This document shows positions 1 to 39,289 of a DNA stretch of 39,289 nt, in pieces (positions within the stretch are counted from its first letter, which is position 1; each line of letters starts with the position of its first letter). A program made the translations under genes and the position numbers. This DNA is from a virus: the IMG/VR virus record IMGVR_UViG_3300035670_000570, positions 1 through 39,289 of that record; one strand, given 5' to 3'. The notes under the pieces were generated by a model that was not told where the DNA came from, did no database searches, and was given only the letters and a program-made list of their open reading frames with translations.

Positions 1-441
1 ACTTCAACGATTGGAACAACGGGACGCGAGCCATCTTGTCTGACGTGACACCGTAGGTGTACTGCATCCATTTGCCAAACAGATAGCGCATTTTCTTTTC
101 TTCTTGAATGGTTTGCGCTTGCCAATAGCCAGCTTTTTGTGGTGCGCGTGGATCAGAATAAAGTGCGACCTCTCCGCTGGCTGGATCTCCGTTGCGAAGG
201 AACTGCCTGAACTCGCGGGTTGCGCGAGGACCTTCTGCTGTTCTTGCACCAAGAGTGCGCACAGTGCCATCAGGCAAAGCAAATCGCTGGTCAGCGATTG
301 CTTTGATTGCGTTGCGGTTTCCGCCAGTTACACGCATAATCATGTCGCGCAACAACTCAACGCGTTTCTGTGCTTCGGCAAGAGTGTCCCAGTTGTAACC
401 AGGAACCTTATCTACGCCTTTGAAATACTTTTCAAAATAGA
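1..441. repeat. Left copy of imperfect 441-bp end repeat (circular overlap)
   Basis: Positions 1-441 align without gaps to 38849-39289. I count 12 mismatches (window positions 8, 20, 32, 62, 83, 131, 167, 173, 245, 302, 311, 314), about 97% identity. All lie inside the giant virion gene, and all fall at third codon positions: 11 are silent and one is Met/Ile. An exact terminal repeat would show none. The pattern fits a circular or permuted genome assembled from a mixed natural population. Confidence 0.95.
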
Positions 442-3400
442 CGCGGCCTTTACCTTGATGCAGCCATCTTGCGGTTGAACCCAACGAAATGTCAACTCCA
501 TTCAACAATGCAAATGCAACTTCACGAACATCGGGTTCGGTTGACAATCCGACAATCTCATCGGCAATAGCACGTTCCCATTCCCGCGGCGACACATTTC
601 GATCTACAACCTTTTGTACGCGGCCAACCACATAACTTGGTGTACCGTCACGAGTGATCGTTTCGTACGCCAAACCTGGTTTGCGGCCAATCATTGCATC
701 AAGAACGCTTACACCATCGTCGTTGAGAATCGACTCAATTTCAACTTGACGGTTTAGCAACACTTCTTCAAGATCAAGCTTGTCCAACGCTTTCTGTATC
801 CGCGAGGCAGTAACGTCGTCACCAGCTGCAATAGCGATATCGAGTTCGTCATTCAGTCTTCGCACAGTCAACAAATCGGCAGCAACTTGGCTTGCCTCAT
901 TTGCTTTAGGTATTACACGACCATAAATATCTTTATTGAGACGTCCAGTGATAATTTCCGAAACATAAGAAAATGGTCCGCGGAACTGTCCAGACATCGT
1001 TGTGCGCATAGCTTCATCTGCCACAACGCGAGTCGTGTAACGCAACCCAAACAAAACATTAGCCTTCCACAAACCCTGTGCGTTCAATGCCTTTTGACGC
1101 ATGAAGTCTTTGAATTTTCCGGCCTCGTAAATACCTGGGAAACGACGTAGCGAATACATCATTTCAGACCACGGTTTGAACAGTTTTACAAGTTTGTCAA
1201 TGTCTTCTGGATCAACAAGTGCAATATTGGAATTGAACAATTCCGATATGAGTGCCGGTCCCAAACCGTCGCCATCCAAATAAGGCAGCGGTACGGCATT
1301 CATCATGTCGTCGCCAACAAAAATGCGCAACTGGTCAAGATCGTCACGACGCCAACGCGATGCCCTATCAATAAAGGTTTGTAGGTCATTGGCAGCTTTG
1401 GACGCACCCATCTTTTTGACTATCGGCGCAAGTCGCTGTTGCAAAACTTCTTTTTCAAATCGACGGGCGAAAGCGAACAATCCTTGTTTTCTTATCGAAG
1501 CATCAGGTATTGAGGCGGTCTGCAAAAAGTCGCCCATGATTTTTGCTCGGTCATCAAACGGAACACGGAACAGTTGGAGTAGATCGTCAACATGGCGTGC
1601 GCCTTCGTCAAGATCATCGAGTGGAATAAACGGGGTGCGTGGAAGACTTGCGAAAATGTTGCTTTCACGAGAGGCGGCTTGTTTGATTCGGAAACCGGCT
1701 TCTGAAATAAGATTTCCTGACCAGCCTGGAAGTTGGCGCATGTAGTTCAAAGGATCTGGGTTGTATACGGCAACGTCCATCAATCGGGTTACTTCTTCTG
1801 GTGTGGTTGCTTTAGCCAAAAGAGTTGCAAGTTCTGGAGAACGACGCTTCAAAACGGTTGACCAAATCTTGTATGGGTTGCTTTCGGAAGCCAAATACAA
1901 TGCCAAATTTTTCCATGATCCGCCGGCTTTGTATACTTCCCATTTGGTTGGGCTGGCAGATACGTGACTACCAGCTTCGACAAGCCCTGCGGTGGACGCA
2001 AATCCGCGAGCCGCAGCCAAATCTTCTGCATGGTTTTTGATGCGTCTGGCATCTTCTAGCAGTTCTACGGCTTGATTGGTGGGGATCTTATTCCCAGTTG
2101 TCTGATCCACCATTCTCATCTTGGATGGGCGCAATACGGCATGTGCGGTGTGGCGACCATAGCCACCGATGCGGGTTCCACCGTCATATTTGAGCGCGTC
2201 AACACCTTTTGAAAGAAGCCAATCGTTTACAATGTTTGTGTCAGGCTCTTTTACGTATACACCAGTTTGTATATAGGTGGATTTTTCTTTTAGTTTGATG
2301 CCGGCAATTTCGTCAATCTGCAAAGACAGTTTTGGTCCGCCAACACTTGACCGTCCAAAAACCAAGCGCACATTTTTTGCAGTCCCGATATCACCGAAGG
2401 ACTGTAAAACGAATTGCGAAAAACCCCTGGTTCCCCTGAGATATAGTGCCGCATTCAAAACTTGCTGCAAATCAAATTGTTGTTCTGGGTCAATATTCGC
2501 AACAATAAACGCTGCAATTTGTTCTGCGTTATCTTCCCGCAACTGGCGAATTGGCGTAAAATTGCCAGCACCAATTTGTTCCTCAACAAGTTTTGACAAT
2601 TTGCCAGACGGTACAGACGTTTTTGTAATTTCGTCAATGGTTTTACCATAAAACAATGTGAGCAATTCATCAAGTTGTTTTTTGGTATTTAGGTCTTTTG
2701 CAGAATCCGGAATCAAAACACGAGTTCTCGGATCTCGTTTGCCAATCGTCCACTCTTCATAAAGACTGTCAATTTTTTTTGTAATTCTTGTTCGAATTTC
2801 TGTCATTGCAAATGTGTCATACCCGACATTTGTCCGAAATCCATCGACAATAGCTTCCTGAATTTCTTCTTTGAGTGTTGGGAAATAGGTTGCCCAATTT
2901 TGGCGAAAATCTCGCGCATAGGGACTTGCGCTCAATTCAAACATGTTGTTATTTATTAGATTTATTGCGCTGATTCGATCTAGCGGCAAGTTGTATTCTT
3001 GAAGAAATTGATACATTGGCAAATTTTCAGCTAGCCGCGCAAATTCTTGAGCTGTTCTGTATTCCCCGTGAATAAAATGACTATCGACAAGAGACCTAAT
3101 CATTTCGCGTGGCATTGGAAAACCGCGGTCCCACAACGCTTCCGCAAATTCAAGCGTTTCGTCATAGCCAACAATAAAATCTTTTGCAAATTCTTCAATT
3201 CCAAAAGGTTGATTTTGGCCGACGGTGATGTAAGGCAATTCGGTATCAACAATGTTCATTTCTGGGGTTAGTTCAAACTTGTAGACGCGGGCGACATTTT
3301 CTTCAACTGCGCCCAGCGGAAGTTCTGCGGTGCCGGTTCCAAGTTTGGCTTGTTCTTCTGGCGTCAATCCGATAATGCGGCTTTGTGGCGTGTAGCTGCT

Positions 3401-4876
3401 AGCCACATACGGGGCATCGGTTACATAGAGGCCAGCACCCAAAAGGTTGCCGTGATTGCGTGGATGCGCTGGATCATCAAGATCCAAAAAGTTTTCTTTT
3501 ACAATTCCTGGTGATACGTCATCGCCGCTGTAGACAATGTTTGGTTTTGGTTGCAGCATGTCGATTGCGTCATCGCTCAAACCTTGTGCCTGTTCAATAA
3601 GTTGTTTGGCTTTACCTGCATCACGCCATAATTCAGGATCAACAATGACGCCTTTTTTGGCAAGCTTGGCCAACTGCCGTGTCGTTGCCGGTGCTGTTGG
3701 CAAGTCGGCTACTACACCAATGCCTTTGTAGTAGTCGGCAATCGAAATCCAGGAAGCTGGATCACCATAGATTTGGAATGCAGCGTCAGTAAGACCGCTA
3801 ATAAGGCTATGAAGATCATCGCCAGCTTGCACAACACCCCACTCGACAAGGGGTGATGCGGCAACGCGACCAATGGTAGCGGTCTGTCCATAGAGGGTGG
3901 GACGCAAATATTCTTCGAGTTTGTTTTTGTTTTGCATTGTTTCCCCTGTGATGAAGAATCCTTCGCCACCAGGGGAGTATTGGAATTGTCCTTCGCCGCC
4001 TTCGAATTCGCGTGAACGCCAACGTTGCATTCCATATTGGGCATACGTGGTATTGGAAAAGATGCCAAGTGCGCGTTCTTTCCAGGATGCTTGCGATTTT
4101 TCAACGGCTCCTGGCGTGTTGAATTCGTCAACGTTGGCTTCAAGAATTGGGCCGAAGATTCCTGTCATTACCAAGTTTTCAATTATTTCAATCGGCATCA
4201 TTAGGAGGCCAGTTGCTTCTCGAATGGTTGGTTTGAACCATTCGTCGTATAGCCATTGACCCAAAATTTCGCTGCGTGTTACGGCATAGCCAAGTACATC
4301 TTCACTCCATTCCGGTGTAAGACGATCAGCCACCCAGCGTCCACCGTTGAATACTGGTTTGCCAACGTTTTCACGCAAATAGACGAAAGGGTGGCGAATG
4401 AGACCGGATGCGTCAGATGCCATGCGTCCAACAAGTTGGTTGGTTGGCGCATTGCTAAATTCGAGTTGCCAACTCATTGAACCGGTTCCGGCACCTGCAG
4501 CTTTGGACCACATGCCAACTTTGTCAATGTTGATTACTGGTGTTTGTCCAGCAATCCACACGTTTGGGCGAACAATATCTCGGTCTGCTTCTTGTGCCCA
4601 TCGTTTGTAGGCGTCTTGTGTTGCGCGATAGTCAAGGCGTTTCTGTTCAAGTGACGCATCATTTTTGGGTGTCGTCAACGCTAGAACGGGTCTTGTTTCA
4701 CCGGATGGTGTTGGGTATCTTGTGCCTGGGGTTGGACCTTGCCCTGGTTGATTCCAAGTGATTTTTTGGCCTGACTCGGCCTGCATCGCTTGGTTGATTT
4801 CGTCAAGAGTTTTGTAATACTTCCCTTTGAAAAGGATGCCCTTATCTTCTTGCGGGTTCGGCTGTACGTCAGACAC
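1..4876 (-). CDS. Giant internal virion/ejection protein, N-terminal 1,625 residues (continues at 38848)
   Basis: The gene starts at a GTG (4876-4874), 8 nt after GAGG, and overlaps the stop of the 102-aa gene upstream. It stays open to the window edge. Joined to 38848-36984 it encodes 2,246 aa. Residues 1-430 are rich in Trp and charge, with a hydrophobic stretch around 230-260. Around residues 447-500 there is VYSGDD, then GAGLYVTD (480-487) and ASSYT, a pattern like the central Tyr motif of ADP-ribosyltransferase folds. Residues about 891-918 carry GVDALKYDGG and HAVLRPSK, like the C-terminal strand of such domains, but the usual catalytic His and Glu are not evident. The rest looks largely helical. 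Size, place between portal and capsid genes, and lack of enzyme motifs elsewhere suggest an internal protein ejected with the DNA, possibly of the polyvalent type. It does not resemble the N4 virion RNA polymerase. Confidence 0.85.
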   Translation of the reverse strand, partial: MSDVQPNPQEDKGILFKGKYYKTLDEINQAMQAESGQKITWNQPGQGPTPGTRYPTPSGETRPVLALTTPKNDASLEQKRLDYRATQDAYKRWAQEADRDIVRPNVWIAGQTPVINIDKVGMWSKAAGAGTGSMSWQLEFSNAPTNQLVGRMASDASGLIRHPFVYLRENVGKPVFNGGRWVADRLTPEWSEDVLGYAVTRSEILGQWLYDEWFKPTIREATGLLMMPIEIIENLVMTGIFGPILEANVDEFNTPGAVEKSQASWKERALGIFSNTTYAQYGMQRWRSREFEGGEGQFQYSPGGEGFFITGETMQNKNKLEEYLRPTLYGQTATIGRVAASPLVEWGVVQAGDDLHSLISGLTDAAFQIYGDPASWISIADYYKGIGVVADLPTAPATTRQLAKLAKKGVIVDPELWRDAGKAKQLIEQAQGLSDDAIDMLQPKPNIVYSGDDVSPGIVKENFLDLDDPAHPRNHGNLLGAGLYVTDAPYVASSYTPQSRIIGLTPEEQAKLGTGTAELPLGAVEENVARVYKFELTPEMNIVDTELPYITVGQNQPFGIEEFAKDFIVGYDETLEFAEALWDRGFPMPREMIRSLVDSHFIHGEYRTAQEFARLAENLPMYQFLQEYNLPLDRISAINLINNNMFELSASPYARDFRQNWATYFPTLKEEIQEAIVDGFRTNVGYDTFAMTEIRTRITKKIDSLYEEWTIGKRDPRTRVLIPDSAKDLNTKKQLDELLTLFYGKTIDEITKTSVPSGKLSKLVEEQIGAGNFTPIRQLREDNAEQIAAFIVANIDPEQQFDLQQVLNAALYLRGTRGFSQFVLQSFGDIGTAKNVRLVFGRSSVGGPKLSLQIDEIAGIKLKEKSTYIQTGVYVKEPDTNIVNDWLLSKGVDALKYDGGTRIGGYGRHTAHAVLRPSKMRMVDQTTGNKIPTNQAVELLEDARRIKNHAEDLAAARGFASTAGLVEAGSHVSASPTKWEVYKAGGSWKNLALYLASESNPYKIWSTVLKRRSPELATLLAKATTPEEVTRLMDVAVYNPDPLNYMRQLPGWSGNLISEAGFRIKQAASRESNIFASLPRTPFIPLDDLDEGARHVDDLLQLFRVPFDDRAKIMGDFLQTASIPDASIRKQGLFAFARRFEKEVLQQRLAPIVKKMGASKAANDLQTFIDRASRWRRDDLDQLRIFVGDDMMNAVPLPYLDGDGLGPALISELFNSNIALVDPEDIDKLVKLFKPWSEMMYSLRRFPGIYEAGKFKDFMRQKALNAQGLWKANVLFGLRYTTRVVADEAMRTTMSGQFRGPFSYVSEIITGRLNKDIYGRVIPKANEASQVAADLLTVRRLNDELDIAIAAGDDVTASRIQKALDKLDLEEVLLNRQVEIESILNDDGVSVLDAMIGRKPGLAYETITRDGTPSYVVGRVQKVVDRNVSPREWERAIADEIVGLSTEPDVREVAFALLNGVDISLGSTARWLHQGKGRVYFEKYFKGVDKVPGYNWDTLAEAQKRVELLRDMIMRVTGGNRNAIKAIADQRFALPDGTVRTLGARTAEGPRATREFRQFLRNGDPASGEVALYSDPRAPQKAGYWQAQTIQEEKKMRYLFGKWMQYTYGVTSDKMARVPLFQSLK

Positions 4877-5536: not shown

Positions 5537-7291
5537 TTATCCCCCTAGTTGAGCTAATAGTTGTTCTAATTGCGGTGGGCCTTGTGGTGCTTGAACTGGT
5601 GCTTGTGCGCCCATCCCTGGCATTGCAAGTCCTGGCATTGTTTCTGGTGAACCTTCTGGCATTTCTTGTGCTTGACGTTCGCGTGCGCGTTGGTCGGTTC
5701 GTGATACTGCTTCGAACAATGGTACATCTTGTTCGATAACGAGACGTGTCAGGTAGGCAAGATCTTCTGGTTGGTATGGCCCTTGCGGGTTGGCTGCCTG
5801 CTGTTGGATGGATTGGAGAAGTGCATCTTCTACGCCTTCTGCGATGATGCGATCATGTTCGAAGTCTGGGTCTGAGATAAGTGGGTCGGCTTCGCGTGCG
5901 GATTCTTTGGACATCAATCCGACACCTAAACGTTGACCCAATCCGATGATGAGATTGTTTACGTCTGTTCCTGATGCCGAGTATGCGACGTAGTGGAAGT
6001 CGGTTTGCCACACTTTGTTCGGTGTGTAGGTTTCTTGTCCGACGGATGATCGGGATGGGATGAAGAAAAACTTTTGTTGGTCACCCCAATACGCTTTCTC
6101 TACTGCTATCGCAATCTTGTCTTCGTGTAGGAGTGAGTTGGCGAATACTTCTTGTGCTTCTTGTACACGGTAGTCAACGGTTGCTGAGAGGACTGCTTCG
6201 CCTCGACGTCCGGTGCGAATGTTGGTTGCGGATTCGCCACCGAACTCGGCTGGGATTGCGCCTTCCAATCGTTCTTGGCGTTCCAAACGATCCAACGCAG
6301 TATCGGTTTTATATCCTGGGTTGAGTTGCAACTGTTGGATGTCGCCACCTTTGACGACGCCGAGGATGCCTGATTTGCCGTCAGCCAACTGCATGATTTC
6401 TGGGTTTTCGCCTGGGCGGGCAACAAGATATTCTTCAGGGAAGATGCCGCGCTCGATGGCGATTTCGGTCAATGCTTGCAAACGGGCACGCGTGTAGTAC
6501 ATGCCGAGTACGCCATCGAATTGGCCGCGTGGTTTGTCGAGTGTGATGCGCTGGGGTACGACTGCGAGTGGCATACCGGTGCGATTCGGGATTGCTTCGA
6601 GGAGGATTGCTTCTAAGCCTGCTCGTTCTGATTGGGTGAGTTCAGGGTTGTCTTCGGCACCCAACACGATGAGTTGCATTGAGTCTTCGCAAACGTATTC
6701 GAGGAGTGTGTAGCGGGAGTCGGAGTCAACTCGTCCGAAACGCAACTGGTTGGCAACCAACTCCCCATAGTTCTTCAGCAGGTATGAGGCGGTGACGCGG
6801 CTGGTGAAGATGCAGTTTTCTGGGACGACATCATCTTCGTCCATTGGTGCAGCGAACGTGTCCAATGGGTTGCGTACGACCCATTTTGGGGTGAGGGTTG
6901 CGAAGTCGGGTTTGATGAATACTGGTGATTGGGAGTAGGCGAGGAGGTGGCGGGCACGGCGACGCAGTTTCATCTGCATACGGTTCTCATCCCAGAACGA
7001 CATCAACGCTTTTTTGCGCATTCGCGCATACTTCTTGGCGTTCTCCGAACCTTCTTTGACTGGTGGGAAGAATGGTGATGGCATGGTGCTGGAGACACGC
7101 ATGGACATCTGATCGAGTCCTTGTACGAGTAGGTTGGCGACGTTCGTTTTTGCGTTCTTGTCCAACTCGTTGAGTGGGACTACGACATCACCGTTGGCAA
7201 GGTCGCGTACGCGACGCATTTGCTCATGTACGGGACCTGCAGCGAGTCTTCGCTGATGGTACAGCTCAACGATATCTTCTAAGGAACGCAA
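5537..7291 (-). CDS. Portal protein, 584 aa
   Basis: The protein would form the dodecameric ring at the capsid vertex through which DNA is packaged and ejected. It follows the terminase gene by one small gene, and its size (584 aa) fits podovirus portals. The sequence begins with helical MRSLEDIVELYHQRRLAAGPVHEQMRRVR, then a region around LLVQGLDQMSMRVSSTMPSPFFPPV, the stem/wing region, and a Gln/Pro/Gly-rich tail (MPGLAMPGMGAQAPVQAPQG) that may be the flexible crown. The start is TTG (7291-7289) with GGGAG about 10 nt upstream; no better ATG lies before the preceding stop. Assignment rests on size, context and general sequence character rather than on a short diagnostic motif. Confidence 0.8.
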   Translation of the reverse strand: MRSLEDIVELYHQRRLAAGPVHEQMRRVRDLANGDVVVPLNELDKNAKTNVANLLVQGLDQMSMRVSSTMPSPFFPPVKEGSENAKKYARMRKKALMSFWDENRMQMKLRRRARHLLAYSQSPVFIKPDFATLTPKWVVRNPLDTFAAPMDEDDVVPENCIFTSRVTASYLLKNYGELVANQLRFGRVDSDSRYTLLEYVCEDSMQLIVLGAEDNPELTQSERAGLEAILLEAIPNRTGMPLAVVPQRITLDKPRGQFDGVLGMYYTRARLQALTEIAIERGIFPEEYLVARPGENPEIMQLADGKSGILGVVKGGDIQQLQLNPGYKTDTALDRLERQERLEGAIPAEFGGESATNIRTGRRGEAVLSATVDYRVQEAQEVFANSLLHEDKIAIAVEKAYWGDQQKFFFIPSRSSVGQETYTPNKVWQTDFHYVAYSASGTDVNNLIIGLGQRLGVGLMSKESAREADPLISDPDFEHDRIIAEGVEDALLQSIQQQAANPQGPYQPEDLAYLTRLVIEQDVPLFEAVSRTDQRARERQAQEMPEGSPETMPGLAMPGMGAQAPVQAPQGPPQLEQLLAQLGG

Positions 7292-7702: not shown

Positions 7703-9709
7703 TCATATCCAAGATGGACGCCACAGTTTCGGTGGGCGACGCACCGGACCAAGCTGAGGCATATGCAACTCGGCAAACCAATGCGCCATCACCAAGTCGG
7801 TACCGTTCTTCTTGTTCCGAGTCCACGACGACATCTCCTCAATGAACGCCAACGTCTTCCAGTTCTCCCGCATCGTCGGCAGGCGAACCTGACCAGCCCG
7901 CCACAACGGTGGCAGCAACGCTTCCACACCCAAATTCTCGTCTAGTTTGTTCCTAGAGGTTGTATGCGGAACGACGAGAACACCGTGAAGGGCCTGCCAT
8001 TTACGGACGAAATCGTGGGCAAGCAAGAAACGTTGAGCAGCGTTCACTTCCACAATCCAGTGGGAGATCGGGTAGCCCATCTCGAACGACCTGTTTTGCC
8101 AAACCTCCATTATTCCGCCGTACTCACGCGAGCCGGTGTCATACCCCAATAGTTCCTCAGCTGTCAACTTAGTACGCTCCACATCCACGAGGTAGCGGAG
8201 GTTTGTGTTGGGTTGGAATAGCCACCATTGAACAGCCCAAAAGTTCGTAGGGCTAGGGTCCACCGAAGCAATCGAGATGATTGGTGGTTCTAAGCCTCCT
8301 GGGATGTATCCAGGTTTCCTATCCCCATCGATACACCCTGGGTATAGCACCCCGTCGTTGCCCATGCCACCTGTTGCCCAGACTCGTTCAATCAGGTATT
8401 GGCCTTGTGCTAAATCTTCTTGCTGATAAATCACCTGGAATTTCGCTGGGGTGGAATGTTTCAGATACGACAAGTCTTTCCATGACAACCTGTATGGGTC
8501 GAGGAGTGGGCCGTTGGGCCACGGTGGGGCAGTCGTCTTACGGGAATCCCTACCGGTGTCCAATTCTTCGTAGTATGCCCTATAGACGAAATGGGTGTAT
8601 TTGGATTTCTTTTCTGGTTCCTTGAGGTCCGAAACGTCCGTGACATCGGAACCGTCGTATGCGTCAGGGTCCTCCTCGTAAGTGACTTTGGAGAGACAAT
8701 GGGCATAGAGATCACCTGGCCCCAAACGTTGCCCGATGACAGCGAGCAAGCCACCTGGATCGACACGTGCTTCAGCTACGGTGTCCCACCGTTCCAAAAG
8801 TTTGTCACGAGCGACAGACTCTTTGGCGTTCTCTGGGGTTGCAACGTCATCAAACAAACAGAGATCGGCACGATGACCGATGAACTCTGAATCAATACCG
8901 TACGAAGACACCGTAGGTTCCTTGTTATCCAACCCCGATAAGTCTTCTTGTTCAACGATGAACTCCTCGGCACGCCACAATGCACCAGAAGATGACGGTT
9001 TGAAGCGTCCGTAGTCGATGGAGAGGCAGGCTTCAGCGTTGATAGCCAACCCTTTCTCAATCAAAATAGGGTCGGGGCTAAGCGGAAACGGTCGCTCCAA
9101 CGTTTCGCGGATACGACGGCTGTACATCTTCGCCAACGTTTGTGTAGCCGATCCGATAAGTACACGAATCTTGCGATTCCGCACAATCATCCACACCGCA
9201 AAATCGTGAAACAGCGTTGATTTACCTGCACCTGGGGGACAGTTGATGCAAATAAACTCTTTTTCTGGTGATTCCAACATTTTTACGATCTTGTACGCGG
9301 CATCCACCTGCCATGCAGACGGAACACGCCCCAAGTACCGTTTGCGAAAGTAATCAAAATCATCCCAACCACGTTGCGCCTCCGGAGAAAGACGGTCATA
9401 CGGGATAACAGGAGGCAAATCTGCGACATCCATCGCATGTTTCCACGCATCAGCCTGAACACCACCCTCCTTCTTGCGAACCTGCCCCTTCTCCACCTCC
9501 GCTAAAGCAATCTCAGCTTTCGCCTTTCGACGTTTCGCCTCCCATTTTGAGGCAGTGTTCACATGGATGCCGGCAACACCGGCGGCGTCTTGTATTGACA
9601 TCCCTGATGCGCGGGATTGCCAGTAGCGGGCTACGTCTTGTGGCGGAATCTGCCGTCGCCCTGATCTACCTGCTGGCATGAGTGTGATAAACTCTACACG
9701 CCGGTTCAT
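7703..9709 (-). CDS. terL: Terminase large subunit with N-terminal helix-turn-helix
   Basis: This is the packaging motor ATPase and headful/cohesive-end nuclease. Residue positions assume the ATG at 9709. The N-terminal 60 residues include a resolvase-like HTH (MSIQDAAGVAGIHVNTASKW, 37-56), a part usually found in a separate small subunit. Walker A is PPGAGKST (158-165), Walker B LCLFDD (283-288), and a nuclease-type acidic strand IASVDPS has Asp484. Length 668 aa fits the family plus the HTH. No separate small terminase gene was seen, so the HTH may do its job. The start is uncertain: ATG at 9679 gives MPAGRSGRRQ, and a perfect AAGGAGG lies about 30 nt upstream of 9709 with no start codon at normal spacing. 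It is the first gene of the leftward structural operon. Confidence 0.95.
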   Translation of the reverse strand: MNRRVEFITLMPAGRSGRRQIPPQDVARYWQSRASGMSIQDAAGVAGIHVNTASKWEAKRRKAKAEIALAEVEKGQVRKKEGGVQADAWKHAMDVADLPPVIPYDRLSPEAQRGWDDFDYFRKRYLGRVPSAWQVDAAYKIVKMLESPEKEFICINCPPGAGKSTLFHDFAVWMIVRNRKIRVLIGSATQTLAKMYSRRIRETLERPFPLSPDPILIEKGLAINAEACLSIDYGRFKPSSSGALWRAEEFIVEQEDLSGLDNKEPTVSSYGIDSEFIGHRADLCLFDDVATPENAKESVARDKLLERWDTVAEARVDPGGLLAVIGQRLGPGDLYAHCLSKVTYEEDPDAYDGSDVTDVSDLKEPEKKSKYTHFVYRAYYEELDTGRDSRKTTAPPWPNGPLLDPYRLSWKDLSYLKHSTPAKFQVIYQQEDLAQGQYLIERVWATGGMGNDGVLYPGCIDGDRKPGYIPGGLEPPIISIASVDPSPTNFWAVQWWLFQPNTNLRYLVDVERTKLTAEELLGYDTGSREYGGIMEVWQNRSFEMGYPISHWIVEVNAAQRFLLAHDFVRKWQALHGVLVVPHTTSRNKLDENLGVEALLPPLWRAGQVRLPTMRENWKTLAFIEEMSSWTRNKKNGTDLVMAHWFAELHMPQLGPVRRPPKLWRPSWI

Positions 9710-21415: not shown

Positions 21416-21578
21416 TGTCTTCCCCTATCGTGAAGGTCAATACTGAGTGTAGCACCAGTGCTACTCCTGTGATCCAGAGGGCTTGACGCAGAGTGGGGCC
21501 TGAGAGGGTAATAAGTACCATGCCGGTGCCTGCGAGAGTCCACGAATTCTCGGTGATGTAGGAGAGGAGCTTCTTCAT
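21408..21578 (-). CDS. Small two-helix membrane protein, 56 aa
   Basis: The ATG 21578 shares its A with the TAA of the PA14 gene. The chain MKKLLSYITENSWTLAGTGM is followed by VLITLSGPT and ALWITGVALVLHSVLTFTIG, giving two short membrane helices separated by a basic loop (TLRQ). The end overlaps the start of the next membrane protein gene. Holin/antiholin pair with its neighbour is possible. Confidence 0.7.
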   Translation of the reverse strand: MKKLLSYITENSWTLAGTGMVLITLSGPTLRQALWITGVALVLHSVLTFTIGEDSE

Positions 21579-22870
21579 TATCGTCGAATCCTAGTTGATG
21601 CCCCTGCTGCTGCGGTCATAAGAGTGCCCGCAGTAACAGCGATGAGGGTGCGGCGTTGGGATACCGGAATCTTGGAGTCCACAGGAATGTAGGTGTCTAG
21701 CCCCGATTTGTAGATGTCTACTTCTTCTTCGAATGCTTCTCTGATTTCGGTTGGTGCGTTCTGGACAGCGGCTACTAGGGCGGCGACCTGTTCCTCATCC
21801 AACTCCTCGACCTCTAGGGCAGCGAACACTTCGGTTGCCTGGTCGGGTTCTAGCGATACCAAAAGTTGTGCTATTTGGGAACTATCGGTGTCGCTGTTGA
21901 GGGTAACCTGTGGGAGTGGCGTATTTTCTGGCTCTGTGGTTGTCGATAGGACTGGTGCTGTTGTTGGCACTGGGGTGGTTGTCGTTTCTGGGACGGATGT
22001 TGTCGGAGGAACCGTTGTGCGAACCGTCGTCGTGCTGCTGTGAGTCGTCGTCGTTGAAGGCTCAACGGTTGTTGAAGGAGGAATCGTTGTTGTCGGGGGA
22101 AGCGTTGTCGTCGTCTCAGGAACGGTTGTCGTAGTTGTTGTTGGCGGGGGTGGTGCCTCCGTCGTAGGTGGGATATAGACCGTTGTTGTCGTCGTTGTTG
22201 TGGTGGTTGTTGGCGGTTCAGTCGTCGTTGTCGTTGACTCAGTAGTTGTGGTGACGAGTTCCGTTGTCGTCGTCACAAGTTCCGTCGTCGTAGTCACAAG
22301 CTCCGTCGTCGTAGTCGTAGTTTCCGGAGTGTCAGTCCAGAACCATTCCTCCGGAACAGGCAACCAGCCAACCCCCGTATAGTGCAACAAGGTTGCGTGT
22401 GCCCCACCACCGTTCTCGTAATACCAAGCAAGCAACTGCTTCGGTTCACCATCAGAGAAGTCAACGTCAGCGGTTTGCCCGCAACCGCCACCACGGTCAT
22501 ACCAATCGTTGATAACCACCTCAGAATCTAAGATGAGTTTGAAGCCGTCATCTGATGCGGCACACAGGTAATAGGTTTGCTGGTCTGGTGGTAGCAGCCA
22601 GCCAGTCCAACGCACCACCACATCCTCTGTGACGTTGCTACCGAGGATCGGGCCGCCTCCCCACGCGTATTCGATGTTTGGGGATGTCCCTTCGTCAACT
22701 ACCGGTGTGATCGGTGGGAGTGGGGGTGCTGCGTTGTATTGGTTGTTTTGTCCTGTCCGATTGTCGTAGACGGTGTAGGTGAGTCCGTTGGTTACATCCG
22801 CTTTAGCAGTTGACGTAAGTGCAAGTAGCGCGGCGGGTGCAAATATCAGCCAGCGGAGGCGGCGACCCAT
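21578..22870 (-). CDS. Exported PA14-domain protein with Thr-rich stalk, 430 aa
   Basis: The start has GAGG 10 nt upstream. Residues 1-24 are a signal peptide (RRLRWLIFAPAALLALTSTAKA). Residues about 27-165 look like a PA14 sugar-binding domain: VVRWTGWLLPP, TYYLCAASDDGFKLILDSEV, INDWYDRGGG and a repeated Gly/Tyr core. About 180-325 is a Thr/Pro/Glu stalk with ELVTTTT repeats. A short acidic helical region (about 330-390) precedes a hydrophobic end (TLIAVTAGTLMTAAAGAS) with terminal Arg, which could anchor it in a membrane. It lies between tail adhesin genes and the lysis genes. It may be displayed on the infected cell or be part of the tail tip; sequence does not decide. Confidence 0.75.
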   Translation of the reverse strand: MGRRLRWLIFAPAALLALTSTAKADVTNGLTYTVYDNRTGQNNQYNAAPPLPPITPVVDEGTSPNIEYAWGGGPILGSNVTEDVVVRWTGWLLPPDQQTYYLCAASDDGFKLILDSEVVINDWYDRGGGCGQTADVDFSDGEPKQLLAWYYENGGGAHATLLHYTGVGWLPVPEEWFWTDTPETTTTTTELVTTTTELVTTTTELVTTTTESTTTTTEPPTTTTTTTTTTVYIPPTTEAPPPPTTTTTTVPETTTTLPPTTTIPPSTTVEPSTTTTHSSTTTVRTTVPPTTSVPETTTTPVPTTAPVLSTTTEPENTPLPQVTLNSDTDSSQIAQLLVSLEPDQATEVFAALEVEELDEEQVAALVAAVQNAPTEIREAFEEEVDIYKSGLDTYIPVDSKIPVSQRRTLIAVTAGTLMTAAAGASTRIRR

Positions 22871-23221: not shown

Positions 23222-24100
23222 TTACGCCCATCCTATGGAGCCTGTGCTATTGAATACGTAAATATGATACCCACCCGAAGTTGTTAGTGTTCCGCCAGTA
23301 AGTGTTTGTGCTGGTGGGGTTGAGTCTGGATATCGCAAAATAACCACACCGCTGTCTCCGCTTGTCCGTCCCGCTCCAGCACCACCACCAAGATTTGCAC
23401 CGTTGTTGCCCAATCCATTTGCGCCAAGAACGCTCGTGTAACTTCCAGTTTCGTCGCTTGCTTTTCCACGACCTCCGCCGCCACGATATGTGGCGGTTCC
23501 AGTTATTGACGATTGAACACCGTTGCCACCCGCACCAGTTGTATAAACGGTGCCATTGAGTGATGGCGCTCCACCAGCAGCAGCCGCTCCACCACCACCA
23601 GCACCAATGCGAGCATTGTTGCCTGTGTTGATTGCATTGCCACCGGCAAATCCCTGTCCGGTGGTTCCAGCACCTCCGCTGTTATCGGCACCGTTGGCAT
23701 TTCCGCCACCAGCACCCGAACCACCGCTCTGACCAGTTGATTGACTTCCGTATCCACCGCCAGTTGAAGTGATTGTTGTAAGACCAGTGCCAGACAATGA
23801 CGAGTTAGAGCCGTTAGCTTCGCCCGTTCCACCGGCACCTACGGTGATCGTGTAAGTGACGCCTGCGGTTGGCACAAATCTGCTTTCGGCAGATGCGCCA
23901 CCGCCAGAGTTTTCTCCGCTAATGGATGAACGGTATCCGCCAGCACCGCCACCACCACACCTGTCATTGTTGTTGCCACCACCACCAGCAAGAACCAACC
24001 ACTCAACCTGGCTTGGAACATAAACTGGGGCACGCCAAGCGTTACCGAACCATTTGCCTACAAGCGTTGAAGGTCGAGTACGGGCACCTGAACGGCTCAT
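23222..24100 (-). CDS. Glycine-rich tail adhesin, second paralogue, 292 aa
   Basis: It begins ARTRPSTLVGKWFGNAWRAP and ends GGYHIYVFNSTGSIGWA, nearly the same plan as the preceding paralogue. The core has many Gly runs (GGGGAGGYRSSISGENSG, GSGAGGGNANGADNSGGAG), the composition of polyglycine-sandwich adhesins such as the gp38 type. Such proteins sit at fibre tips and set host range. The ATG overlaps the paralogue's TGA (ATGA). Confidence 0.8.
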   Translation of the reverse strand: MSRSGARTRPSTLVGKWFGNAWRAPVYVPSQVEWLVLAGGGGNNNDRCGGGGAGGYRSSISGENSGGGASAESRFVPTAGVTYTITVGAGGTGEANGSNSSLSGTGLTTITSTGGGYGSQSTGQSGGSGAGGGNANGADNSGGAGTTGQGFAGGNAINTGNNARIGAGGGGAAAAGGAPSLNGTVYTTGAGGNGVQSSITGTATYRGGGGRGKASDETGSYTSVLGANGLGNNGANLGGGAGAGRTSGDSGVVILRYPDSTPPAQTLTGGTLTTSGGYHIYVFNSTGSIGWA

Positions 24101-25038
24101 GCTATTACCAAACTTCCCGTGTCATTGAAAGTATGGATCGTATAGTTGCCCGAAGTGGTAATGGTGCCGCCAGTAACAGACGCAATTCTAGAAGTTGCCA
24201 AATCCGCAGTCAGATAGCGAACAATAATAACACCCTTTCCGCCATTGCCACCAAGCGGAGTGCTTGCCGAACCGTCATTGTTTCTTGCCCCACCACCACC
24301 GCCACCAGTATTTGCCGTGCCAGCAGTCGCATTATTTTGCCCGATAGAACCGTTACCACCACCGCCAGTTCCACCAGAACCAGCAGATGTGTAATGACCA
24401 CCACCGCCACCACCAGCACGAGTGACTGCTGAACCAGTAATGCTTGAAGAAACACCTACGCCGCCAACTCCACCGCTTGCGCCAGCATTGCCACCAACTG
24501 CTCCAGCACCACCTCCACCACCACCACCGAAACCAGGATTTGTATTACTTCCTTGACCGCCTGCATAACCTTGACCCGTAGTACCAGTTCCAACTGAAGT
24601 CAAGTTATTTACACCGTGCGCACCGCCACCAGAACCACCATTTCCGCCCGTGTAGCCGTTATATGAACCTCCACGACCACCGCCCGACGAAGTAATTGTT
24701 GTGTAGTTGTCGCCAGAAATCGAACTATCCGAACCTGCTGCGCCAGCAGCACCAGTTTCACCTGTTTTCCCTGCTCCTCCTGCACCAACGGTTATTGTGT
24801 GGGTTCCGGCACCAACAAACAATGATGCTTCAGCAGAAGCACCACCACCAGAAGTTTCCCCGCTTACATTTGTGCGATAACCACCAGCACCACCACCTGC
24901 TCCAGCAGATGCACCGCCACCACCGCCACCCGCAATAACCAGATATTCAACGGATAAAGGTGCAGGACCTAATGCGCTACCAAACCACTGACCGACAAGT
25001 GTTGAAGGTCGTTCTCGCTCACCGAAACGCAAAGTCAT
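24097..25038 (-). CDS. Glycine-rich tail adhesin, first paralogue, 313 aa
   Basis: N-terminus MTLRFGERERPSTLVGQWFG and C-terminus SGNYTIHTFNDTGSLVIA mirror those of the next gene; both start with a conserved RPSTLVG(Q/K)WFG segment, probably the fibre attachment. The central 220 residues are built of Gly runs with Ser/Ala/Asn (GGGGGASAGAGGGAGGYRT, GGRGGSYNGYTGGNGGSGGG). The two genes are a tandem duplication that has diverged mostly in the Gly-rich middle. Receptor binding is inferred. Confidence 0.8.
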   Translation of the reverse strand: MTLRFGERERPSTLVGQWFGSALGPAPLSVEYLVIAGGGGGGASAGAGGGAGGYRTNVSGETSGGGASAEASLFVGAGTHTITVGAGGAGKTGETGAAGAAGSDSSISGDNYTTITSSGGGRGGSYNGYTGGNGGSGGGAHGVNNLTSVGTGTTGQGYAGGQGSNTNPGFGGGGGGGAGAVGGNAGASGGVGGVGVSSSITGSAVTRAGGGGGGHYTSAGSGGTGGGGNGSIGQNNATAGTANTGGGGGGARNNDGSASTPLGGNGGKGVIIVRYLTADLATSRIASVTGGTITTSGNYTIHTFNDTGSLVIA

Positions 25039-29209: not shown

Positions 29210-29360
29210 GACGAGACGCCCACGCGTTATCAACAAGGTTCGGGTATGGGCGACCAGCTTTGGCGGCACGTGCCTTCGCAGCAGACTTCTGCTTAGGGGA
29301 CAACGACTTCGACTTCTTCTTCGGGTTCTTGGTATCCCAGAACGCTTTCTTCTTTTTCAC
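29202..29360 (-). CDS. Tiny basic protein with AGRPYPNLVDN motif, 52 aa
   Basis: GTG at 29360 overlaps the glycosyltransferase stop (GTGA) and has GGAG 7 nt upstream. Sequence starts MKKKKAFWDTKNPKKKSKSL, continues with an Ala/Lys helix and ends AGRPYPNLVDNAWASRRG. This motif-ending type recurs in phage genomes. A DNA- or capsid-linked role is likely but not shown. Confidence 0.75.
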   Translation of the reverse strand: MKKKKAFWDTKNPKKKSKSLSPKQKSAAKARAAKAGRPYPNLVDNAWASRRG

Positions 29361-30451
29361 AGTGCTTCTCCTATCACGTTTCCGTTCTCAAACACTACTT
29401 GATAAATGTTCTCCGGTACCACATACTCCTGCCCTGGGAGGTAGGTGAAGTCTTTGCCGTTGATGCTGCCTGTGACCTTGCGTTTGACTCGCATCGGCAT
29501 ACTGATTTTGGCGTCATCCCAAACAGGGTCGGTGAGTAGCCCGCCGACGGGGAGGGCGTCAGCCAACTGGCGGGCAGCGTTATCCCACGACCACACCTTC
29601 GTTTTGGTGATCCTCTGTTTGGCTTGCTTCTTGTAGTTTGCATGACTTGAAAATAAGGTTCTCATAGCGTCAGCCAAATCATCAGGATCGGACTCATCCC
29701 ACAGGCCACCGAACATCGATGGGGACTGTCCGTGGGGAATGACGATGGATGCCAGGTCTGCGAACTCTGCTTGCCCAGATGAGGCGTTGATAATCGTTGG
29801 GATACCCATAGCCATCGCCTGCAACGGCATCAACCCAAATCCTTCACCTCTCGTGGCTGCGATATAGCAGTCGGCGTCATTGAAGAATTTGACGGTTTCT
29901 TCTTGGGTGAACCATTTCCTGTGCATGAACACGTTGTCCGGCAACGTAAGCGGCGGAACACCATGCGCTTCAGGGTTCGGTTTCAAGTGCAGTTCGGCAT
30001 CCAGGTCGGCACGTTTGAACGCCTCCAACACGATGTCCAACCCTTTACGCAACCACTGGGAGCCACCGGCATGGAACCTGAACCGTTTATTCTCAGGGCG
30101 AGGCGTAGCTTTCCACACCGAATGATCGACCCCCAACGGCACCTTCTTCACGTTCTTGTGATGCCGAGAAAACAGTTCAAGATTGTGGTCGCACGGAACG
30201 AGTATCTGATCGTAGAACTCCATCCACCGTACGAACCTGGGGTTCAGTTCGGTTGATTCCCACATCGTAAAACAGGTGCGATGCTGACCTTTATAAACCC
30301 CTTTGATTTGATACGGCTGCAACATGTTCACCATCACATCGGCATGTTCATGCAACGTGATGTCGTCGGGAACATGTTTGATGAACGCATCCCACATCGC
30401 CCCATAGCCGTACCGTGGGTCGGCAAACCCCAACCAAGACTGATAGTTCAA
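29357..30451 (-). CDS. GT4-like glycosyltransferase, 364 aa
   Basis: The TTG at 30451 overlaps the upstream TGA (TTGA), with no other start near. The N-terminal half holds a Rossmann-type region and VPLGVDHSVW; the C-terminal half has FHAGGSQWLRKGLDIVLEAF, WFTQEETVKFFNDADCYIAA, then TRGEGFGLMPLQAMAMGIPT. The usual GT-B E-x7-E pair appears as E...Q (EGFGLMPLQ), so the second Glu is replaced. A C-terminal extension (from about residue 310) has a small beta domain (KVTGSINGKDFTYLPGQEYV). It may glycosylate virion proteins or host envelope receptors. Sugar donor not predictable. Confidence 0.85.
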   Translation of the reverse strand: MNYQSWLGFADPRYGYGAMWDAFIKHVPDDITLHEHADVMVNMLQPYQIKGVYKGQHRTCFTMWESTELNPRFVRWMEFYDQILVPCDHNLELFSRHHKNVKKVPLGVDHSVWKATPRPENKRFRFHAGGSQWLRKGLDIVLEAFKRADLDAELHLKPNPEAHGVPPLTLPDNVFMHRKWFTQEETVKFFNDADCYIAATRGEGFGLMPLQAMAMGIPTIINASSGQAEFADLASIVIPHGQSPSMFGGLWDESDPDDLADAMRTLFSSHANYKKQAKQRITKTKVWSWDNAARQLADALPVGGLLTDPVWDDAKISMPMRVKRKVTGSINGKDFTYLPGQEYVVPENIYQVVFENGNVIGEAL

Positions 30452-32518: not shown

Positions 32519-33481
32519 TTAGTTCGCGCCAATGCTTGACGACGACTCAATGCGACGCAGCGACGCTTCACGGAAGCGTGCGTAACCGCCGAGCCAGTAC
32601 CAGCCGACAGGCTGGAAGCGGCTGAGAACGTCGACCACCGGACCGCGCACTACGCGTGGGAACGCACCATTGCCATCGACAATGGAGTGTGCCTTTGCGA
32701 GAGCCTGACGGCCACAGATGTGGGTGCAGTACGCATCCACAGTGCCCGTCGAGCCTGAGCCGTTCGAGGCGTTCTCGAAAATCTTCGCACGTGGCGTCTC
32801 AATGAAACGCACACCTTCGAAGGCTCCGACTTCACCGTTGTAGATGAGTGCTGGGTCGCTGTACACGTGCGGGTCACGCCACGAAGCAACACCGGTCTCA
32901 CGACGGAGATCGTACGACACGTCAGGGTGAATGTAACCCATGTACATGCCGTTGAACGAAACGGCGTTTGCCTTGCGGAGAGCTGCAACGATCTTGCGAA
33001 CGTCGTTTGCCTCGATGATGTCTTCGGCGGCGATTTCGGTGCGCGAAGTTGGGGTGGTGCTTCCGCCACCGCCGTACACCACGTTCGAGCCAGCGGCAAG
33101 AACGTCACGGATAACTCCGTCGATGGAGATACCGGCGTTGTAGCCAACGAGGTTGGCTGCTGCGGCATCCACGTCGAGGAACGAAGTTCCACGCAACTTG
33201 GCGGTGGTGTTCACGGCGTTGCCGTACTCGGCAAGCGTCACTTCCACCTGGCTGTCACCCATGACAACTGGGGTCACGTCGGTGTCCTCAGTCAAGGTGC
33301 TGGTCTTCTCCGACAGGTCGTTGAAGATCGTGAACTTCACGCTCGAACCTGGCATGGATTGGGCAACCGGCATCACGTCGGCAACCGCGTCGAACAAGAG
33401 TTCGCTGCGGAGTGCGAAGTACGCAATCCGATCAAATGCAACCTGGTCTGTGAGCAGGTCGCTCGTCTGTGTCTTTGTCAT
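32519..33481 (-). CDS. Major capsid protein, N4-gp56-like, 320 aa
   Basis: The protein builds the icosahedral shell. It begins with QTSDLLTDQVAFDRIAYFAL, and has VKFTIFNDLSEKTSTLTEDT, VTPVVMGDSQVEVTLAEYGN, then MGYIHPDVSYDLRRETG and GVRFIETPRAKIF, the order typical of the N4-gp56 family of HK97-fold capsids. It follows the scaffold gene by 40 nt, and it has an RNA hairpin just before the start (33483-33506). Length matches the family. Expression is probably the highest of the genome and likely set by the hairpin, inference. Confidence 0.9.
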   Translation of the reverse strand: MTKTQTSDLLTDQVAFDRIAYFALRSELLFDAVADVMPVAQSMPGSSVKFTIFNDLSEKTSTLTEDTDVTPVVMGDSQVEVTLAEYGNAVNTTAKLRGTSFLDVDAAAANLVGYNAGISIDGVIRDVLAAGSNVVYGGGGSTTPTSRTEIAAEDIIEANDVRKIVAALRKANAVSFNGMYMGYIHPDVSYDLRRETGVASWRDPHVYSDPALIYNGEVGAFEGVRFIETPRAKIFENASNGSGSTGTVDAYCTHICGRQALAKAHSIVDGNGAFPRVVRGPVVDVLSRFQPVGWYWLGGYARFREASLRRIESSSSIGAN

Positions 33482-36157: not shown

Positions 36158-36991
36158 TTAGCCCAACAACTTTTCGAATACTTGCGCATATTGCGCGAAC
36201 TTATATGCTTGCGCTTCGTCGGGGTTCTGTTGCTCGATCTGCTCTTGGCCAAATGTGGTTGGAGATGGAGCCTGAGTAACTGTTCCGCCTGCGGCAGCTT
36301 TTTGTTGGTAGCTGCGCTCAGACTGTTGATACGCATTTACCATACGATCAACTTGCTCTTGTGGGAGATCTCCGCGACCCAGTGTGTCCTGTGCTGCTTT
36401 GCGGAACACTGAACGCAAATCGGAAGGATTGGTGACACGGTATGTTGTCAACTGTCCAGAACCTGCGGACACTGGATTCGTTTGCCGGAACTGCAACAAA
36501 GCATCCCAAGTTTGACCAGTCAAATTTGCTTCGGCCATAAGTGCTGCGAATGCTGCGATTGGCTTAGTCAAAGGATCGCCTGGTTTATGTCGGTCAGTCA
36601 AATAGTTGGCTTTCTGTAATTTCACAATAATGTCAGCTTGTTTTTCTGGACCGTAAGTTGCGAGTTCGTAGTTATCGCCGTCATAGTATTTGGGTGGAAC
36701 TTGTTGACCTGTGCGTGGGTCAACAGCTTGGAATCCTTCGTAACGCAAAATTCTGTTGGGGTCGGTTTTATCTACAACTCTTGTCCCTGGAACACCAAGA
36801 GCCGATAGGCGCATTTCGTTGGTGAACAAACTTGCGAAACGTGGATCGGCCAATAGGTTTTGCAAGTCCTGTTGGACTTGTGTATTGCCTGGGATAGCAC
36901 CAGTGGACGCCGGTGGAACCGTCGTCGTTGGCGGGATCGTCGTCGTTGGAGACGGCGGCGGCTGCTGGTTCATTGGGCGCATTTCAGCCAC
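36158..36991 (-). CDS. Internal virion protein-like with Thr/Pro linker, 277 aa
   Basis: GTG at 36991 has GGAGG 9 nt upstream and overlaps the stop of the giant gene; ATG 36982 is the alternative. A Pro/Thr linker (PPPSPTTTIPPTTTVPPAST) occupies residues 11-30. The rest is helical: QQDLQNLLADPRFASLFTNE, ALMAEANLTGQTWDALLQFR, and a coiled region RMVNAYQQSERSYQQKAAAG. The three proteins 36991-34080 together resemble the set of ejection proteins of T7-like phages by place, not by detailed sequence. Confidence 0.75.
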   Translation of the reverse strand: MAEMRPMNQQPPPSPTTTIPPTTTVPPASTGAIPGNTQVQQDLQNLLADPRFASLFTNEMRLSALGVPGTRVVDKTDPNRILRYEGFQAVDPRTGQQVPPKYYDGDNYELATYGPEKQADIIVKLQKANYLTDRHKPGDPLTKPIAAFAALMAEANLTGQTWDALLQFRQTNPVSAGSGQLTTYRVTNPSDLRSVFRKAAQDTLGRGDLPQEQVDRMVNAYQQSERSYQQKAAAGGTVTQAPSPTTFGQEQIEQQNPDEAQAYKFAQYAQVFEKLLG

Positions 36992-39289
36992 CTGTCGTCA
37001 CCTCCTGCGGAGTTTGCGTAGTTCTTGTAAGACTGTCGAGTTTTTCGGGCGTCAGACGCTCGAATTCTCTTGACAATAGATTATCCCATAGGTTTCGGAA
37101 TGCGGGATTTTGTGTCACCAGTTTCTCGCCGTGCATGAAAAGCACTTCGCGTTCCAATACACCCCCGTTATTGGTTTTCCAACCATCCGGTGCTAGACGG
37201 GGATTGTTTTCTCGGATTGCGGCAATAACGCCATCTCGATACGAAAGGTAGTCGCGCAGGGTTGCCATAACCGGCTGGTTGGCAACCTGCGGGTCATTTG
37301 AGGCATCAATGATTTCTTCCATTTGGCGACTGATTTCGGCGTCACGTTCAGATGCGTAAAGGCTGGGGTTCCAATAGGGGTTGGATTTGCGGATTTCTGC
37401 GGCTTTTAGTGACAGGATTGCGCGTCCTGCTGGAGTGTTACGAACTTCGGCAGGAAGGTTTCTTTCGTAGCGACGGTAAATAATTCCACCCATGAGACCG
37501 TCGATTGATTGGGCCAGTTCCCGTGGTGGGAGGTAGGCGCGTTCATCAATGCGGCGTTGCAGGTCATAAACCTCGAAGTCGTAGTTGCCGGTCTTTTCAA
37601 AGAACAGGCCGGCTGACGCTGGATACTTTTCAAACAGATAGCCATTGTTTGCGCGGAACGATTCGAATTCGGTTGATGGTTCTGATCCTGCGCGAGTTGA
37701 GCTACTTAGTGACGCAAAGTAGGGGACGATGAAATCGCCGTATTTGTTTATCATTGCTTCTTGTGCGTCTGCGATATTGCCGCCAGCTTTGAGGATTTGT
37801 TGTTCGGTATTGCGAATGTCGTCAAGGACGATGCCGAGTGGGATTAGGTCTTTGTTTGTTTCAACGTAATATTGGGTGATTGGTGCGGCTGGCAGGAAGA
37901 ACTGTCCAATACCGCGCATCGTCCAAAGTTTCAGTGCAGCTTCGTAACTTTCTTTAGCCAACTGTTCAATACCGGCTTGCCCTGGCGGGTAGACACGAGT
38001 GGCAGCAAAGTTTTGCATAGCGCGACTGTGCATATATTTGAACACTTCGTTTTGTTTTGGATCACCCAACAAACCGCGTACGGCTTCGCCTGCCTGTTTA
38101 TCGGATAGTTGGCCTTGCGCAATGCGTCGCGCCCACATCGGCGCAAAGTAGTCGGTAATCGTACGATCCCCTGGTTCACCATACGGGAAAATTGCTTTAT
38201 TTAGCCACGACCAGTCTTCGCCTTGTGGACCGAACATGCTGTAGGTAATACCAACCACAGGGCCTACGCCTGGGATGACGTTGGATTGCATGGTCAAACC
38301 TTCAACTGGAACAGCCAAATTGAACGGTACGTCTGACCACATTGACGCTAACGCACCAAGTAGCGGCACAGCAAGAACCTGTTTTCCGGTACCTGGGTCC
38401 GTGTAAAGGAATCCCTCTTGCTTGCCGTCAGCATTGGTGTCACGCTCACCGAACAGCATGGTTTCTCCAGGGCCACCAAGACGGAAGCTTTCGAGTCCGC
38501 GTCGTGCTACGTCAACCTTGTGAATGTTCTGCGGGTTGAGTCCAAGTTTGAGCATCGTGCTAGCAGTTTCACGGAAAGCATCAAAGAATGGGAACAGGAA
38601 AGCGTGTTGACGTCCAAAGTTTGATCTTTTATTTGCATCGAACAATAGGTTCACTGTGTCTTCCAACGCCCACTTGTTAGCAAAATCTTCCAATGTCTCC
38701 AATGTGAGTTCGCCCGCACCAGCACGATCAATGTTGGCTGCAATGCGAGCCTTCAAACTTTCGGGAAGGTCCGATTCCAAAACAATTCGCGCCAACTTGC
38801 GTCCTTCTGAAGCAGACAACATTGGTATCATGTCAGCCACTTTGTTCCACTTCAATGATTGGAACAATGGGACGCGAGCAATCTTGTCTGACGTGACACC
38901 GTAGGTGTATTGCATCCATTTGCCAAACAGGTAGCGCATTTTCTTTTCTTCTTGAATGGTTTGCGCTTGCCAATAGCCGGCTTTTTGTGGTGCGCGTGGA
39001 TCAGAATAAAGTGCAACCTCCCCGCTGGCTGGATCTCCGTTGCGAAGGAACTGCCTGAACTCGCGGGTTGCGCGAGGACCTTCTGCTGTTCTGGCACCAA
39101 GAGTGCGCACAGTGCCATCAGGCAAAGCAAATCGCTGGTCAGCGATTGCCTTGATTGCATTCCGGTTTCCGCCAGTTACACGCATAATCATGTCGCGCAA
39201 CAACTCAACGCGTTTCTGTGCTTCGGCAAGAGTGTCCCAGTTGTAACCAGGAACCTTATCTACGCCTTTGAAATACTTTTCAAAATAGA
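36984..39289 (-). CDS. Giant internal virion/ejection protein, C-terminal part
   Basis: This is the C-terminal continuation of the gene at 4876-1; the true 5' end is not here, and residues before about 1,626 are duplicated by the end repeat. The apparent internal TTG start at 39203 is only a codon of the longer frame. The segment reads as a mainly helical structural protein with patches such as FGRQHAFLFPFFDAFRETAS and VVGITYSMFGPQGEDWSWLN, typical of large virion proteins, then ends TRTTQTPQEVTTGG. The stop (36986-36984) overlaps the GTG start of the next gene (36991), so translation is probably coupled. Long hydrophobic helices (for example around IGQFFLPAAPITQYY) fit a role in crossing the host envelope. 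That role is inference from podovirus internal proteins. Confidence 0.85.
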   Translation of the reverse strand, partial: YFEKYFKGVDKVPGYNWDTLAEAQKRVELLRDMIMRVTGGNRNAIKAIADQRFALPDGTVRTLGARTAEGPRATREFRQFLRNGDPASGEVALYSDPRAPQKAGYWQAQTIQEEKKMRYLFGKWMQYTYGVTSDKIARVPLFQSLKWNKVADMIPMLSASEGRKLARIVLESDLPESLKARIAANIDRAGAGELTLETLEDFANKWALEDTVNLLFDANKRSNFGRQHAFLFPFFDAFRETASTMLKLGLNPQNIHKVDVARRGLESFRLGGPGETMLFGERDTNADGKQEGFLYTDPGTGKQVLAVPLLGALASMWSDVPFNLAVPVEGLTMQSNVIPGVGPVVGITYSMFGPQGEDWSWLNKAIFPYGEPGDRTITDYFAPMWARRIAQGQLSDKQAGEAVRGLLGDPKQNEVFKYMHSRAMQNFAATRVYPPGQAGIEQLAKESYEAALKLWTMRGIGQFFLPAAPITQYYVETNKDLIPLGIVLDDIRNTEQQILKAGGNIADAQEAMINKYGDFIVPYFASLSSSTRAGSEPSTEFESFRANNGYLFEKYPASAGLFFEKTGNYDFEVYDLQRRIDERAYLPPRELAQSIDGLMGGIIYRRYERNLPAEVRNTPAGRAILSLKAAEIRKSNPYWNPSLYASERDAEISRQMEEIIDASNDPQVANQPVMATLRDYLSYRDGVIAAIRENNPRLAPDGWKTNNGGVLEREVLFMHGEKLVTQNPAFRNLWDNLLSREFERLTPEKLDSLTRTTQTPQEVTTGG
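38849..39289. repeat. Right copy of imperfect 441-bp end repeat
   Basis: This is the partner of positions 1-441. The giant minus-strand ORF is in the same frame in both copies, so joining base 38848 to base 1 restores one uninterrupted gene. The unique circle would then be about 38,848 bp. Confidence 0.95.

Follow-up and report, generated by a model that had tools for sequence, protein, structure and literature searches.

An ADP-ribosyltransferase-like domain with altered active-site residues in a giant, putatively ejected protein of an IMG/VR virus

The viral contig IMGVR_UViG_3300035670_000570 (positions 1 to 39,289 of the record, analysed here over its full 39,289 nucleotides and referred to as the window) encodes a giant protein of 2,246 amino acid residues. 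Its residues ~440-926 are predicted to adopt an ADP-ribosyltransferase (ART) fold, a call well supported by a structural model with six strands in ART order. The domain appears to be a new variant of the ART superfamily, in which active-site residues seem to have been replaced rather than lost by decay. We read it as part of an ejected protein, belonging to a new ART subclade on the side of ART-PolyVal/DUF3990, and as a possible early effector with an altered site; taken as a whole, this reading stands evenly balanced in our judgement.

Results

The open reading frame (ORF) of the giant protein lies on the minus strand, starts with a GTG codon at position 4876 and is open at window base 1. ORF and motif positions place the N-terminal 1,625 residues at 2..4876, and a C-terminal part of 767 residues continues across the end overlap (36984..39287, minus strand, read from 39287 to 36984); residues 1-1479 together with this part make up the 2,246 residues. 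The terminal direct overlap (1..441 with 38849-39289) is 97% identical with 12 mismatches over 441 bp, and its copies encode identical residues save for M1615/I. The genome represented by this contig is closed or terminally redundant. With its 12 mismatches, the overlap resembles an inexact terminal repeat or a mixture of strains and not a clean circle. Searches of the giant protein against Pfam and PHROG models and INPHARED records gave no match; weak DUF1965 and HTH/MIS13-type hits were dismissed as chance.

An earlier interpretation made from the letters alone (the sequence-only reading) had pointed to several ART-like motifs in this protein. The length of 2,246 residues after joining across the end overlap equals the figure given in that reading, and all the motifs were found at the residues quoted: VYSGDD (448-453), GAGLYVTD (480-487) and ASSYT (492-496), followed by GVDALKYDGG (891-900) and HAVLRPSK (912-919). 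An alignment of the related proteins that carry the domain displayed the conserved elements [YW]SGD, NLxGxGLYx[TS]D...SY, a VYxF strand and KGVDAxxY[DN]GGxRI...GxHxAxVVLxPSK, with a long and variable middle between the two conserved segments. That both segments belong to one domain split by a helical insert is supported because they align to the two halves of a single ~200-aa domain in relatives with a short insert, and the alternative of two separate, unrelated domains was not borne out. The insert is about 280 residues longer in the window protein than in its short relatives (the L100 and L108 types described below), so that the suggested long insertion held in kind and not at its supposed 400 residues.

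On the minus strand of the window, the first half of the core (residues ~440-552, strands 1-3) spans 3221..3559, as delimited by an alignment of 56 sequences from the window clade and the bridging families introduced below (alignment A5) and by an AlphaFold2 (AF2) model. Within this half, alignment A5 places the strand-1 motif Y449-S450-G451-D452, with Ser where the ART His is expected, at 3521..3532. The strand-2 motif GAGLYVTD including Tyr484 (3416..3439) follows from sequence and alignment A5, and strand 3 (residues 530-535, RVYKFE; 3272..3289) from alignment A5 and the model. The insert (residues ~556-875; 2252..3211) is mostly helical and poorly conserved according to the alignments and to a prediction of mostly low confidence. 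The second half (residues ~880-926; 2099..2239), consisting of a helix and strands 4-6, was delimited by alignment A5 and AF2; alignment A5 also defines its signature Y897-D-G899-G900-T-R-...-H909-T-A911, a GG...H arrangement at strands 4/5 (2144..2188).

Predicted fold and structural homologs

The AF2 model calculated with alignment A5 for window residues 430-940 had a mean predicted local distance difference test score (pLDDT) of 57.9; the blocks around the core motifs scored about 80-94, most of the insert below 50. Its core strands (447-452, 483-486, 530-535, 894-898, 910-914 and 921-923) follow the ART order, which agrees with the fold suggested by the sequence-only reading. A first run with eight close sequences reached a pLDDT of 38 and was discarded.

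The best VIA-align match was chain B of 9k3a, a pre-ejectosome chain of cyanophage A4, with Z 8.8 over 164 residues; its matched range of 1120-1601 starts ahead of the ART-like segment, so that the alignment extends in part beyond this segment. The next ART-fold entries were NatT (6.7), ParT (6.4), RES (5.9), a diphtheria-toxin homologue (5.8) and PARP1 and tankyrases (~5.5). Matches to transporters and a cage at Z 5-7 were set aside, as they map to the helical insert. A search with hmmsearch and alignment A5 also listed the A4 chain at E 0.23, over residues 1416-1583 and with both YHGT and GVDALT aligned in register, and hhalign of this segment against alignment A5 gave an E-value of 3.2e-7 at 93% probability. 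When the A4 protein A4L_27 and the Roseovarius Plymouth podovirus 1 (RPP1) protein were added to alignment A5, the second half aligned badly, and that version was not used. Foldseek with the 511-residue model yielded nothing at E <= 0.001; against a viral library one match reached 4.6e-3, and several entries with ART-PolyVal-like names appeared lower down. The fold call rests on VIA-align and independent profile evidence, the Foldseek result alone not being significant.

Bridging families and homology to recognised ARTs

Scans with DNA patterns revealed two divergent groups that share the signature but have His in strand 1. The first (L100, L092 and L097) reads MYHGTG...GPGYYLTSD...GYDGITYNGGQRI...EHQATVIF, the second (L108) FYHGTS...GNLLGNGFYTTDD...GYGGLTHQGGVRAGKGKRLHKVNIYW. 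L108 was found by a pattern for GNLxGxGLY and L100 by a pattern for GxDxxxYxGG, and therefore only the remaining motifs in each are independent of selection. A third motif, a strand of the form VYK(F/L)...(N/K)(I/F)(V/F)D, aligns in alignment A5 and was part of no DNA-pattern search. The giant ORFs of the first group (2,445-2,546 aa) contain SLT and LPD38 domains in L100 and a glucosaminidase in L097, besides a weak C39-like peptidase match.

A search with L108 opened a family of about 60 podovirus-like contigs (L108-L182) that share HxGG...H and retain YHG. In L108, the ART ORF is preceded by one that encodes a lysozyme-like domain and followed by a T7-type tail fibre gene; T7-like phages encode an internal virion protein at this location. 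Within this family, DUF3990 of Pfam matched all 23 aligned members (best 1.4e-6) and ART-PolyVal 16 of the 23 (best 2.2e-4), with scores below gathering in the member inspected. The same models detect the polyvalent ART of Roseovarius Plymouth podovirus 1 (ART-PolyVal 1e-10, DUF3990 2.3e-5). PF18760 (ART-PolyVal) gave no match to the window or L093 proteins and matched the bridging families weakly.

Among window ORFs of at least 40 aa, a profile built from L108- and L100-type sequences only ranked the giant ORF first (E 0.0012, the next at 2.2), its best stretch being the GxGLY motif. With L093, a distant homologue, included in the profile, the E-value fell to 3e-7 and the matching stretches were 468-516 and 876-932. 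The profile-profile score was 31.3, and none of 100 column shuffles scored above 26.2. By way of the bridging family, which can be aligned to the window clade across four motifs, the window domain thus appears homologous in sequence to a recognised ART family. Nothing usable was obtained by tblastn of the window, L093, L100, L108 and L124 (a short homologue of 207 aa) domains against INPHARED, by a sequence search of the PDB with the close alignment, or by profile scans of genome contigs with two alignments.

Active-site residues

Canonical polyvalent ARTs carry His in strand 1, Tyr in strand 2 and Asp in strand 5 (PMC5512222). In alignment A5, position 450 is Ser in eight sequences, comprising every aligned window-clade member that covers it, and His in 47, while one fragment lacks the region. 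Tyr484 occurs in all 55 sequences covering it, and G891, G899, G900 and H909 are invariant (56 of 56). Position 910, presumed to be that of the strand-5 acid, varies among T, N, E, R, Q and K (T910 in the window), and 911 is Ala or Val; the assignment of the acid's place among 909, 910 and 911 follows the register of the sequence alignment. Of the marks of ART-PolyVal and Tox-ART-HYD2, the strand-2 Tyr is present, and the strand-1 His and strand-5 Asp are lacking. This agrees with the remark of the sequence-only reading that a catalytic His and Glu are not evident, as Ser450 occupies strand 1 and no Glu is present at 909-911.

Among four close carriers, the ratio of nonsynonymous to synonymous substitutions (dN/dS, as ratios of computed values) was about 0.1-0.2 for the core and 0.14-0.42 for the insert; in most carrier pairs, synonymous sites had nearly reached saturation. 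Both parts are under purifying selection, which is stronger on the core. The label of a degenerate ART, offered earlier, is a poor description, since strict conservation extends to the replacement residues themselves and dN/dS is low. The residues present place the domain on the H-Y side (ART-PolyVal/DUF3990-like) and not in the R-S-E clade of Alt.

Distribution of the domain

The window terminase (large subunit gene at 7703..9709, minus strand) is 26% identical to that of Streptomyces phage Immanuel3 and its kin, and a search with it retrieved 80 related viral contigs. The giant ORF was complete in 54 of them, with 1,511-1,869 aa in 50 and 2,187-2,272 aa in four. The domain is a presence/absence module within one phage group because the long proteins (L037, L053, L054 and L056, besides the truncated L050) contain both motif segments while those of L007-L009 align on both flanks and omit window residues ~405-967. 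Later scans added L084, L087, L090, the distant L093 and a similar contig of L103/L109, bringing the carriers to ten related contigs; most others of the group lack the domain.

The distribution of the module cuts across terminase relationships. Phages devoid of the domain (e.g. L003, L005 and L007) have terminases 94-95% identical to that of the window and giant proteins only 23-26% identical, whereas carriers share 75-79% in the terminase and 31-42% in the giant protein; the terminase of carrier L093 is 63% identical. In a comparison of L003-L082 with window positions 2-4876, genes with and without the module were seen despite terminase and portal identities of at least 90%, and the giant gene was far more diverged than its neighbours.

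Genome context

The giant gene is located in the head/packaging block between the portal and capsid genes, with the portal gene upstream of it (5537..7291, minus strand) and the major capsid protein gene at 32519..33481 (minus strand). In the relatives, the proteins of 1,511-1,869 aa occupy the same position. Two adjacent genes on the minus strand (23222-24100 and 24097-25038) both match phrog_2295 and the glycine-rich Pfam domain PF21722; they probably arose by tandem duplication of a gene for a tail or appendage protein. Next after this pair is a gene for a PA14-domain protein (21578-22870), and a GT4-family glycosyltransferase (also matching GT4-conflict; 29357-30451) is encoded within the structural block.

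Discussion

We propose that the giant protein is an internal virion protein of the ejection type that is packaged alongside the genome and enters the cell on infection; ejection is likely in view of the gene position and the match to the cyanophage A4 pre-ejectosome. After delivery, the domain would act as an early effector that binds nicotinamide adenine dinucleotide (NAD+) or a similar nucleotide; its most likely activity would be the modification of a host macromolecule or the consumption of NAD+. Its altered active site would retain Tyr484, with the strand-1 His exchanged for Ser450 in the conserved SGD and the invariant GG...His909 at strands 4/5 standing where an acidic residue is usual. 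NAD binding, catalysis and target are inferred.

Several results weigh against this proposal. Active H-Y ARTs are defined by the His and the strand-5 acid; both are missing here, so that residue rules do not predict catalysis, and in Pfam searches no window-clade member itself matched any ART model. The alignment behind the AF2 model included L108-type sequences. Z-scores of 5-7 can reflect a common arrangement, and comparable values were obtained for three unrelated transporters that align with the helical insert. With Foldseek, the 511-residue model had no significant match in the PDB, the best being a tankyrase at E 0.79 followed by several PARPs. The presence of the protein in the virion is itself deduced from gene position and the A4 match.

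The same fold might instead be that of a pseudoenzyme, a component of the internal core or ejectosome with a structural or ligand-binding role that functions in packing or partner binding without NAD+ chemistry, to which we assign an appreciable, though less than even, probability. Ser replaces His in all aligned window-clade members covering the site, strand 5 has no conserved acid, the structure matched best is that of a pre-ejectosome chain, solved experimentally, and the domain is absent from most phages of the group. However, S450-G451-D452, Y484, G899-G900 and H909 are kept, even in L093, as a set of which a pure scaffold would have no evident need, and GG...H is common to L108-type relatives that retain the His of YHG. 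An interpretation that goes further, and that we regard as unlikely, is a new class of ART-fold enzymes delivered by phage ejection proteins, in which an invariant Gly-Gly...His at strands 4/5 and Ser-Gly-Asp or His-Gly at strand 1 would replace the H-Y-E/D chemistry and support a different NAD-dependent reaction.

A convergent or spurious likeness, with chance GxGLY and GxDA motifs on two unrelated segments, would account for the weakness of single profile matches (probabilities of 15-44%; E 0.039 with L108-type sequences only). We consider it very improbable, as the same motif order recurs in divergent groups, the strand-3 motif lay outside the DNA-pattern searches, the predicted core is confident, and sequence and structure methods converge on the A4 chain. 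Hardly credible is a canonical Alt/VIP2-type (R-S-E) ART injected to modify the host RNA polymerase. Although injected phage ARTs of such type exist (T4 Alt, PMC5512222), the window protein has Ser450 and no Arg in strand 1, Tyr484 in place of Ser and no Glu at 909-911, and its relatives display the H-Y-side YHG and GxGxY motifs and match ART-PolyVal/DUF3990.

Comparison with known systems

ARTs are an established theme in polyvalent phage proteins (PMC5512222), and VIP2-like ARTs are known in freshwater phages (PMC6802176). T4 Alt, ModA and ModB, phage ARTs delivered or expressed early that act on host proteins, offer an analogy in mode only; they represent the R-S-E clade, and the earlier comparison with Alt was in this respect misplaced. 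PARP13 (4x52, 2x5y), an inactive PARP among the weak Foldseek matches, likewise combines an ART fold with altered catalytic residues. It differs from the window domain in being eukaryotic and in its replacements, and to our knowledge GG...H is not known in it.

Protein A4L_27 of cyanophage A4 (Anabaena phage A-4L; 9k3a chain B) is a large internal protein with an ART-like segment, its likeness being assessed in this domain only. It differs in keeping YHGT and in reading DGDTTLVINPDAV after GVDALT, without GG...H. In L185 (20116-25269) it is annotated solely as a tail protein, of 1,717 aa, the length of 9k3a_B, with YHGT...GSGTYFS...GVDALT at 1416-1583, and it has no Pfam ART match. The 9k3a match connects an ART-fold segment with the machinery of genome ejection and raises the question of a chemical versus a structural role. 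The presence and absence of the module across terminase relationships provides a natural comparison set.

The nearest family is ART-PolyVal (PF18760, Tox-ART-HYD2), whose prototype, the vRNAP of Roseovarius Plymouth podovirus 1 (CBX87992), also contains an ART core inside a giant phage protein. Both share the YxG position of strand 1, GxxY/F in strand 2 and GYDG/GVDA ahead of strand 4. The window clade differs from ART-PolyVal in that it gives no detectable Pfam match, carries Ser for His, lacks a conserved Asp/Glu in strand 5, and has both an invariant GG...His signature and a long additional insert. We set the domain apart from ART-PolyVal/HYD2, as a probable new variant, because it departs from that family in two diagnostic residues and in the Pfam search. 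Polyvalent ARTs are recognised by their H-Y-D/E residues and by Pfam models; the present family escapes both although it keeps the fold and has fixed residues of a different set, and such domains are therefore probably missed in uncultured phages.
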